Source: Maricaulis maris
Lineage (GTDB): Bacteria; Pseudomonadota; Alphaproteobacteria; Caulobacterales; Maricaulaceae
Assembly: GCF_036322705.1 (NCBI RefSeq)
Contig: NZ_AP027270.1
Coordinates: 2,791,501-2,855,500, forward strand
Reading direction: 5' to 3'
Length of the DNA stretch: 64,000 nt
Shown here: positions 7,837 to 9,784 of the stretch, piece after piece
How positions within the stretch are numbered: the stretch's first letter is position 1
Layout: each line of letters opens with the position of its first letter
Notes under the pieces: model-generated
What the model was told of the DNA's origin: nothing
What the model saw: the letters and a program-made list of their open reading frames with translations, nothing else
The model's database searches: none
Translations under genes and position numbers: made by a program

Positions 7837-7974
7837 ATGACCAAAGCGTTTGCCTTGCCGGTAGCCCCGGCCGCCGCCCTGATGGGCGAGCGGGTGAACA
7901 CGCTCGGCCTCCTCCTCCTCGTACTTGTACTTATTATCCCGACCATAACGGGAGCGGTAAGCACGCCTGCCTGA
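7837..7974 (+). CDS. Branched-chain amino-acid leader peptide (attenuator peptide, 45 aa)
   Basis: A 45-codon open frame from ATG 7837 to TGA 7972-7974, 88 bases upstream of ilvD. Residues 25-34 read LLLLVLVLII: ten successive Leu, Val and Ile codons, with another Leu two codons before. Five of them (CTT twice, GTA twice, ATT) look uncommon in this GC-rich DNA, which would sharpen sensitivity to charged-tRNA supply. It is followed by an attenuator terminator, and a segment of its own coding region can disrupt that terminator. This is the classic design of ilv/leu leaders such as E. coli ilvL; attenuation has also been reported for Caulobacter ilvBN. The ribosome site is weak, and ATG 7882 is an in-frame alternative that keeps the whole run. 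Confidence 0.85.
   Translation: MTKAFALPVAPAAALMGERVNTLGLLLLVLVLIIPTITGAVSTPA
7949..7957 (+). promoter_or_regulatory. Antiterminator arm of the ilv attenuator
   Basis: CGGGAGCGG, inside leader-peptide codons 38-41 and just after the Leu/Val/Ile run, is exactly complementary over 9 bases to CCGCTCCCG at 8008-8016, the 5' arm of the terminator. A ribosome stalled on the Leu/Val/Ile codons would leave this segment free to pair and so block terminator formation. A ribosome reaching the stop codon would cover it. Confidence 0.65.
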
Positions 7975-7997
7975 CGAGAGACCTCGCCAACTGGCAG

Positions 7998-8039
7998 ACA
8001 AAAAACCCCGCTCCCGGAACCCGGAGCGGGGTTTTTTGT
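7998..8039 (+). terminator. ilv attenuator terminator
   Basis: CCCCGCTCC (8006-8014) pairs with GGAGCGGGG (8023-8031) across an 8-base loop. Six A:T pairs plus two more outside extend the stem to 17 bp, and the 3' arm runs into TTTTTT. It lies between the leader-peptide stop and ilvD (ATG 8063), so it can only serve to control read-through into the operon. The A-rich flank would also allow some function on the other strand. Confidence 0.9.
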
Positions 8040-8062
8040 GTTTTGACCCACGGAAAACCCTG

Positions 8063-9784
8063 ATGACACACGACCACCGCAAATCCTCAGACGCCATTAC
8101 GGCCGGCCCGGCGCGGGCTCCGGCCCGGGCCATGCTGCGTGCGACCGGCATGGAGGATGCCGATTTCGACAAGCCGATGATCGGGGTCATCAACACCTGG
8201 ACCACGGTGACGCCCTGCAACATGCACCTCGCCGATCTGGCCGAACCGGTCCGCGAAGCTGTCCGGGAAGCCGGAGGTCATCCCGTCGATTTCAACACGA
8301 TCGTGGTGTCGGACGGGATTTCCATGGGCACGGACGGCATGCGCGCCTCCCTGATCTCGCGGGAGGTCATCACCGACTCGATCGAGCTGGCCGTGCGTGG
8401 TCACAGCCTGGATGGCGTGGTCATTCTGGTCGGGTGCGACAAGACCATCCCGGCGGCCGCTATGGCGCTGGCGCGGTTGGATGTTCCCGGCTGCATCCTC
8501 TATGGCGGGACGATCATGCCCGGCAAGCTGGGTGACAAGGCGCTGTCGATCCAGGACGTGTTCGAAGCGGTCGGTGCGCACGCGGCGGGTACACTCGACG
8601 ACAAGGGGCTGGCAGAGGTCGAAAAGGCGGCCTGCCCGGGCGCCGGCGCCTGTGGTGGTCAGTTCACCGCCAACACGATGGCGATGATCCTGACCATGCT
8701 GGGCCTGTCCCCGATGGGCGTGAACGATATCCCGGCTCCGCACCCGGACAAGCCCGCCGCCGCCGCGCGCTGCGGTCGCCTGGCGGTCGAGCTGGCCAGG
8801 ACCGGGACCACGCCACGCCGCTTCATCACCGAAGCCTCCCTGCGCAATGCCGTGATCGCGGCTTCGGCCTCCGGCGGCTCGACCAATGCCATCCTGCATG
8901 TGGCAGCCATTGCCGCAGAAGCCGGCGTGCCATTCGACATTGCCGATTTCGACCGCATCTCGAGCGAGGCTCCGGTCATCACCGATCTGAAGCCCGGCGG
9001 ACGGTTCCTGGCGCACCACATGTTCCTGGCCGGCGGATCGCGCCTGTTCGGGCAGCGCCTGATCGAGGGCGGTTTGCTGGCCGACACCCCGACCGTCACC
9101 GGCACAAGCCTGCACGGCGAATGCGCCAGCGCAGAAGAGTCCCTGAACCAGCGCGTCATCCATACCGTCGCCAATCCGGTCAAGCCCGATGGCGGCTTCC
9201 GCATCCTGACCGGCGACCTGGCGCCCGAGGGCTCGGTCCTGAAATTGTCCGGCCATGACCGCAACGCGTTTTCCGGTCCCGCCCGCGTGTTCGAGTGCGA
9301 GGAAGAGGCTTTCGCCGCGGTCGAGGCCAATTCGATCAAGCCGGGCGATATCCTCATCATCCGTAATGAAGGCCCCAAGGGCGGCCCAGGCATGCGCGAA
9401 ATGCTGGGCGTCACCGCCGCCCTGGTCGGCCAAGGCCTGGCGGGCGACGTCGCCCTGATTACCGACGGCCGCTTCTCCGGCGCGTCGAAGGGCTTCGTGA
9501 TCGGCCATGTCAGCCCGGAAGCTGCCGACGGCGGTCCGATCGGCCGTATCCGTAATGGTGACATCATCCGCATCGATGTCGCGGCTCGCCGGATCGATGT
9601 CGAGGCGGACCTGAGCGAACGCCCGGTTTCATCCTCCGGTCGGCCGGCACCGACCGGCGTCTTTGCCAAATACGCTGCCCTGGTCGCTTCGGCGTCACGC
9701 GGCGCCACCACAATCATCGCGCCGACGCCACCCGCGACGCCGCCAAGCCAACACATGCAATCCAAGCAGGAGATGCCCGCATGA
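8063..9784 (+). CDS. ilvD: Dihydroxy-acid dehydratase
   Basis: Fourth step of valine/isoleucine synthesis: dehydrates 2,3-dihydroxy-isovalerate and -methylvalerate to the 2-keto acids, using an Fe-S cluster. It is 573 residues, normal for the family. The signatures [25 protein letters not shown], and [11 protein letters not shown] followed by GHVSPEA, with the cluster cysteines, are intact. The chosen ATG at 8063 gives [27 protein letters not shown] start; the open frame extends upstream into the terminator, which cannot be coding in the regulated mRNA. First gene of a nine-gene ilv-leu operon; its stop overlaps the ilvC start by 4 bases (ATGA). Expression should depend on the leader attenuator. 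Confidence 0.96.

Follow-up and report, generated by a model that had tools for sequence, protein, structure and literature searches.

Attenuation of operons for branched-chain amino acids (BCAA) is well established in Gram-negative bacteria, and in Escherichia coli the ilvGMEDA leader encodes a 32-aa peptide with 15 BCAA residues (PMC6123439). Among alphaproteobacteria, ilvBN of Caulobacter has been described as attenuated (PMC4117421). Two systems lie in front of operons headed by ilvD: Rli60 of Listeria monocytogenes, an experimentally shown attenuator, precedes the nine genes ilvDBHC-leuABCD-ilvA (PMC5864092), and a leucine-rich attenuator lies upstream of ilvDBNCleuABCDilvA in Staphylococcus aureus (PMC5794164). 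The anatomy of a leader alone is no proof of its function, since changing the candidate control codons of the ilvB leader of Streptomyces coelicolor had no effect (PMC1262725).

Here we analyzed a window of 64,000 nucleotides, positions 2,791,501-2,855,500 of the single-contig 3.14-Mb genome of Maricaulis maris; coordinates below are those of the window unless a genome position is given. It contains nine ilv and leu genes in a row, which were identified with NCBIfam and Pfam:

8063-9784, + strand: ilvD, dihydroxy-acid dehydratase, the first gene of the cluster
9781-10797, + strand: ilvC, ketol-acid reductoisomerase
10833-12554, + strand: ilvG-type acetolactate synthase large subunit (ATG start chosen; the ORF opens at 10770)
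12557-12901, + strand: ACT-domain small subunit, ilvM-like
12883-14472, + strand: leuA, 2-isopropylmalate synthase (start uncertain, 12871 or 12883)
14487-15443, + strand: ilvE, branched-chain transaminase
15475-16872, + strand: leuC (start uncertain)
16865-17467, + strand: leuD
17464-18525, + strand: leuB

With the starts chosen, the gaps between these genes are 35 nt or less, and all nine would be carried on a single transcript. The LeuA of the cluster has no second copy in the genome, and its acetolactate synthase has one other match there, at 30% identity. Upstream of the region described below, an ammonium transporter gene (5638-6987, - strand) points away from it.

The initial annotation of this DNA had read the region before ilvD as a ribosome-mediated attenuator, and conservation, compensatory changes in both helices, codon choice and operon linkage now support that reading. 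On this comparative evidence the cluster is very probably preceded by a classical ribosome-mediated transcription attenuator, with the following elements:

7757-7818, + strand: conserved non-coding block upstream of the leader (alignment of ten close loci)
7776-7781 and 7799-7804, + strand: candidate promoter, TTGCCT and CACGTT separated by 17 nt
7803-7813, + strand: inverted repeat TTGC-AGC-GCAA (alignment of ten loci), putative
7837-7974, + strand: leader peptide ORF of 45 codons, ATG to TGA (ORF call; similar leaders in relatives)
7909-7938, + strand: ten control codons, LLLLVLVLII, residues 25-34 (codon bias over 90 loci)
7930-7941, + strand: possible segment 1 (protector), which would partner 7949-7961 when no ribosome is stalled (folds)
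7949-7957, + strand: segment 2, the 5' arm of the antiterminator, within codons T38-V41 (exact complement, pair counts)
7967-7997, + strand: inner hairpin of the antiterminator, over the leader stop codon (CUGCC 7967-7971 with GGCAG 7993-7997)
8008-8016, + strand: segment 3, the arm common to antiterminator and terminator (complement, fold, pair counts)
7998-8039, + strand: intrinsic terminator, stem 7998-8014 with 8023-8039 and U-tract 8032-8037 (fold, compensatory changes)

The leader frame with its ten consecutive Leu, Val and Ile codons was found as first described. Residues 25-34 read CTC CTC CTC CTC GTA CTT GTA CTT ATT ATC, and in six frames over the whole 64-kb window LLLLVLVLII is the sole run of at least eight Ile, Leu or Val residues. 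Several of these codons had also been called uncommon. This holds for GTA and CTT, which are scarce in the downstream cluster (0.5% of Val codons, 1/220, and 3% of Leu codons, 8/268, respectively), and fails for CTC, which makes up 20% of the Leu codons there and is not rare. The bias recurs in relatives. In a codon table of 90 of the 109 relatives' loci described below (10 suspected duplicates and 9 loci without a clear leader were removed), the control codons differ from those of ilvD in their use of GTA (43% versus 2.5%), CTT (35% versus 5%), ATT (85% versus 20%) and CTG (14.5% versus 64%). The idea that control codons are selected for sensitivity to starvation has been put forward previously (PMC1183508), and the bias that we see in the leader sequences fits starvation-sensitive control codons of that kind. 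Part of it, for example the use of ATT over ATC, may possibly serve to keep the run unstructured.

The leader as a whole folds at -90.6 kcal/mol (z -5.2). Within it, the terminator stem of 17 pairs with its T-run before ilvD, as initially annotated, is recovered in the fold of 7975-8040, the RNA left free once a ribosome has reached the leader stop codon (stem 7998-8014 with 8023-8039, -37.7 kcal/mol, z -6.6). The reported 9-base complement is equally exact: 8008-8016 is the reverse complement of 7949-7957 (CGGGAGCGG). Folding in the two ribosome positions, proposed by the initial annotation as a check, thus gives the terminator for 7975-8040 and the antiterminator with its inner hairpin for 7948-8018 (-32.0 kcal/mol), the RNA left free with a ribosome stalled in the run and the polymerase in the first arm of the terminator. 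The limits of this stalled-state fold follow from an assumed size of the ribosome footprint. When 7948-8038 is all free, the terminator is preferred (-45.7 kcal/mol) even with segment 2 available, so antitermination would have to be kinetic, decided during transcription.

Two further elements of the fold were compared among relatives. In a pair count of a nine-row alignment the outer helix is 98.8% paired, and 19 of 500 shuffles match the whole structure. The inner columns of that count are out of register in most rows, and for the inner helix we therefore used only the consensus of the nine rows, in which its pairs are kept in 7-9 of the 9 rows with no compensatory change. Pairing of the protector type is possible in 37/37 rows of the larger alignment described below; this helix between segments 1 and 2 is no better than in shuffled sequence (mean z -0.6).

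Conservation before ilvD was assessed in relatives found through IlvD, taken from 99 family genomes (69 with a match, best 30 loci used) and from a genome collection (best 80 among the matches listed). The closest named IlvD relative among the matches listed is a Maricaulis MAG, at 91%. In 99/109 loci the DNA before ilvD holds a leader-like ORF and, no more than 60 nt after it, a stem-loop with T-run. This figure does not count independent genomes, since loci overlap and the same genome is in places present twice. One locus without upstream DNA (L091) and the matches of the genome to itself (L001-L003) were omitted from the 109. The weak cases among the 99 include L066, L029 and L095; the best ORF and hairpin are not adjacent in L026, L058 and L092, which were not counted even though the leader ORF of L092 is clear, nor was L101, which has a leader-like ORF and no hairpin by the rule used. 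No leader-like ORF was found in L099, L104, L108, L109 and L111, all titled Dyella, or in the 251 bases available upstream in L112. The titles of the loci include Maricaulis, Robiginitomaculum, Parvularcula, Brevundimonas, Lysobacter, Arenimonas and Luteimonas. The outcome named at the outset as speaking against attenuation was loss of the leader codons in relatives that keep ilvD; the loci show retention of leader and terminator, which favors the attenuator.

The density of Ile, Leu and Val residues agrees with this count. At least seven of nine residues are Ile, Leu or Val in 99/108 upstream regions, and at least eight in 78/108. On the reverse strands the same thresholds are reached in 5/108 and 0/108, and in control regions 850-1300 nt upstream in 2/96 per strand and 0/96.

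Twenty loci carry gammaproteobacterial titles (L081, L083, L090, L092, L094-L097, L099, L102-L104 and L106-L113), and 14 of them have a leader-like ORF; the six that do not are the five Dyella loci and L112. L061, titled Bordetella, was set aside. The gammaproteobacterial leaders may mean that the operon was transferred, or inherited long ago, together with its putative attenuator. In hand-picked rows, the ilvD leaders of related alpha- and gammaproteobacterial loci have an alignable core, the same position and compensatory changes, and by these tokens they may be taken as one RNA family. They probably share ancestry rather than having converged.

We then counted base changes in the two helices in an alignment of 37 rows (41 of the 99 loci were hand-picked, and four with short tails were dropped). 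The antiterminator helix of 9 bp has 90.3% of its cells paired, a percentage inflated by anchoring the rows on the best complement and by a sample that leaves many Brevundimonas with weak complement outside it, together with 17 double-changed cells and a covariation score of 0.215; on each of these three measures 0/500 shuffles equal it. When the partner is slid by 1-3 columns, the score is just 0.02-0.05. The terminator helix, in the same 37 rows, is 92.5% paired with 15 double-changed cells and a score of 0.156, and 0/500 shuffles are as high. Two further counts, named by the tool as those that relatedness distorts least, are how many pairs show a double change and how many pair types occur; these stay within the shuffles both for the antiterminator (4 pairs and 13 types; 90 and 61 of 500 as high) and for the terminator (3 and 9; 243 and 193 of 500). 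For a mutually exclusive antiterminator that shares the terminator arm, three of five measures thus beat all 500 shuffles and two do not.

The most telling antiterminator pair is A-U in 24 rows, C-G in 6, G-U in 5 and U-A in 2, and is broken in none of the 37. The C-G rows come from loci of Lysobacter/Luteimonas type, among them L103, whose title says no more than Gammaproteobacteria. In four of these rows the change falls on the last position of a Gly codon (GGA to GGC), and in two on that of a Ser codon (AGC); of the U-A rows, L081 has GGT and L097 is in a different reading frame. Several lineages have thus altered the RNA pair and kept the Gly-Ala of the peptide. Locus by locus, the complement between segments 2 and 3 reaches p <= 0.05 by shuffling in 58/99, and in some Brevundimonas it is merely 4-5 bp long.

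These changes bear on the possibility that the small ORF encodes a small protein, for example a membrane protein, with a function of its own, next to a terminator that is ordinary or unrelated. The hydrophobic run would suit such a protein, and the ORF is kept among close relatives, whose leader peptides are 87, 76, 64 and 56% identical to ours. Further away, however, in a hand-picked set of ten peptides, the six more distant ones are only 21-44% identical over their whole length and retain mainly the hydrophobic run and Gly39, and base changes in the leader are mirrored in the terminator arm. The distribution of the ORF also argues against it. We took ~14 kb around ilvD from 20 chosen of the 69 family genomes: 11/20 loci have the same nine-gene order, 5/20 have a version of the cluster without detected ilvE, 1/20 is cut by a contig end after ilvD-ilvC-ilvG, and in 3/20 all eight further genes are missing from the stretch around ilvD. 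The leader score is at least 7 in 17/17 chosen loci with further ilv genes after ilvD, and 4 or less in 3/3 with ilvD alone. Since the ORF accompanies ilv-leu operons and is absent where ilvD stands alone, we consider a protein of independent function highly improbable. In the five Dyella-titled loci, ilvD follows leuC-leuD-leuB and has no leader. The three loci above with ilvD alone and no leader are L134, L135 and L136; in two of these genomes (G041 and G015) an aspartokinase/homoserine dehydrogenase gene lies ~2.6 kb upstream on the same strand.

Alternatively, the leader peptide could exert its control through Rho or through translation of ilvD, and not through an intrinsic terminator. The leader stop codon is merely 88 nt from ilvD, and some actinobacterial leaders lack obvious terminators (PMC1262725); against this, a strong stem with T-run accompanies the leader in the 99 loci counted above and carries compensatory changes, and we give this route as little weight as the previous one. 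A chance meeting of a hydrophobic ORF and a hairpin in GC-rich DNA is the least credible explanation by a wide margin, for although this DNA has many terminator-like hairpins (8 in 7301-18900 versus 5.6 expected in shuffles), the Ile/Leu/Val density controls, the uniqueness of the run in the window and its conservation across loci all speak against coincidence.

Under attenuation, the leader would be transcribed with a ribosome following the polymerase and translating the 45-codon peptide. With ample charged Leu-, Val- and Ile-tRNA, the ribosome would reach the stop codon at 7972-7974 and there cover segment 2 and the inner stem in part; the terminator stem 7998-8039 would then form, and the polymerase would stop at about 8037, in the U-tract. 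Were any of the three tRNAs scarce, the ribosome would instead stall at codons 25-34, immediately 5' of segment 2. Segment 2 (7949-7957) would then be free to pair with segment 3 (8008-8016), with the inner hairpin assisting. The antiterminator so formed would preclude the terminator and allow read-through into ilvD-ilvC-ilvG-ilvM-leuA-ilvE-leuC-leuD-leuB. We infer translation of the leader, stalling, termination and a response to each of Leu, Val and Ile from the sequence.

Where this transcript would begin is less clear. As a scan for the sigma-70 consensus upstream of the leader found no match, the promoter is a guess that rests on the conserved block, with a +1 conjectured near 7811. The inverted repeat TTGC-AGC-GCAA lies ~24 nt before the leader start and is largely kept in close relatives, with variation in some rows; it may be an operator or belong to the promoter.

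Run against the genome, a covariance model built on the leader scored two other places (E 0.002 and 0.009) and also listed two at E 5.7 and 6.0. Two further attenuators are likely, judging from their leaders and terminators, in the same genome (G000):

L139:1415-1639 (G000:C1 ~1,179,947-1,180,171), + strand: leader ORF rich in Ile, then a terminator, immediately ahead of ilvA (threonine ammonia-lyase); the leader ends ...SIITVIAPIGAMTPTT
L138, G000:C1:1129344-1129453, - strand: Thr/Ile-rich leader containing TTTMITMTT, then a terminator, ahead of a fused aspartokinase/homoserine dehydrogenase gene

By eye, an Ile-rich leader lies before ilvA in 5/9 family loci, namely those of the five genus members, and a Thr/Ile-rich leader plus terminator before the aspartokinase/homoserine dehydrogenase gene in 21/30, with nine Thr in a row in L169. 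Complement tests, run on these 5 and 21 loci (L159, with a Thr-rich ORF and terminator, was left out), were significant for 1/5 and 12/21 leaders, respectively. The initial annotation had placed the ilv-leu route and all three amino acids under one attenuator. This probably holds for the nine-gene cluster; the whole isoleucine route is not covered, because ilvA lies elsewhere and seemingly has an Ile-rich attenuator of its own.

These leaders would fit a Maricaulis-type regulon for Thr, Ile, Val and Leu with at least three separately placed attenuators, of which the ilvD one would have been inherited along with its operon across Alpha- and Gammaproteobacteria. The runs would fit the pathways (LLLLVLVLII before the ilvD superoperon, IITVI before ilvA and TTTMITMTT before aspartokinase/homoserine dehydrogenase), and the arms would be shared, a GG(A/G)GCG-type antiterminator against a CGCTCC-type terminator. 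We hold this wider reading tentatively, as slightly more apt to fail than to hold, because a class-wide search with the leader model found no leader beyond the genome itself and one with a training row. Three of 385 genomes had a match at E <= 0.01 (G000, G336 and G479), and the G336 leader (L142) reads identical to training row L100 and is thus probably no new case. The G479 match (E 0.009) was rejected, with no Leu/Val/Ile run visible before its hairpin. None of the 4 genomes of the same order was matched in that search, which scored nine candidates per genome and so gives no estimate of distribution and no support for class-wide spread. A plasmid search gave no match. With Rfam 15, nothing reached a gathering score: Thr_leader (RF00506) scored 32.9 bits against a threshold of 55 on the + strand, over the terminator, and Leu_leader (RF00512) 22.8 bits against 50, on the - strand only. 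Five other loci (L139, L138, L094, L053 and L044) had no Rfam match.

In summary, the locus offers a well-supported candidate attenuator outside the enterobacteria, beyond every Rfam 15 model at gathering score, in which one BCAA leader would govern the larger part of the pathway in a group of alphaproteobacteria. Its relatives form a natural set of leaders with a segment 2 base that changes together with the terminator arm, suited to a test of joint selection on peptide and RNA pairing. The attenuators that probably precede ilvA and the aspartokinase/homoserine dehydrogenase gene point to attenuation as a tie between the aspartate-family and the BCAA branches. A search by title and abstract opening, outside subscription journals, found no paper that describes a Maricaulis leader or one preceding ilvD in this group; Vitreschak et al. 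(2004) may already include some of these leaders.

Among the known systems, E. coli ilvGMEDA resembles Maricaulis in having one BCAA-rich leader with ilv genes under attenuation. It comprises five genes, and leuABCD has its own leader there. In Caulobacter the attenuator controls ilvBN, whereas the acetolactate synthase genes of Maricaulis lie inside the ilvD superoperon. The Caulobacter ilvBN attenuator is said to be that of Tarleton et al. (1994). Both organisms are alphaproteobacteria and have a leader and terminator, with tandem Ile and Val codons in Caulobacter (PMC4117421). Likened by layout and not by sequence, S. aureus also has a leader upstream of ilvD in an ilv-leu operon, but that leader provides Leu control and Ile acts through CodY (PMC5794164). 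Rli60, again by layout, has in common with it a leader peptide, a 2:3 antiterminator, a 3:4 terminator and ilvD as first gene of a nine-gene operon under one attenuator, an arrangement tested by mutation in Listeria; it differs in belonging to a Firmicute, with CodY above it and another gene order, ilvE being inside and ilvA outside the Maricaulis cluster (PMC5864092). Control of nine ilv-leu genes, with ilvD at their head, by a single attenuator is therefore not new: Listeria Rli60 is its experimental precedent, and the layout recurs in S. aureus.
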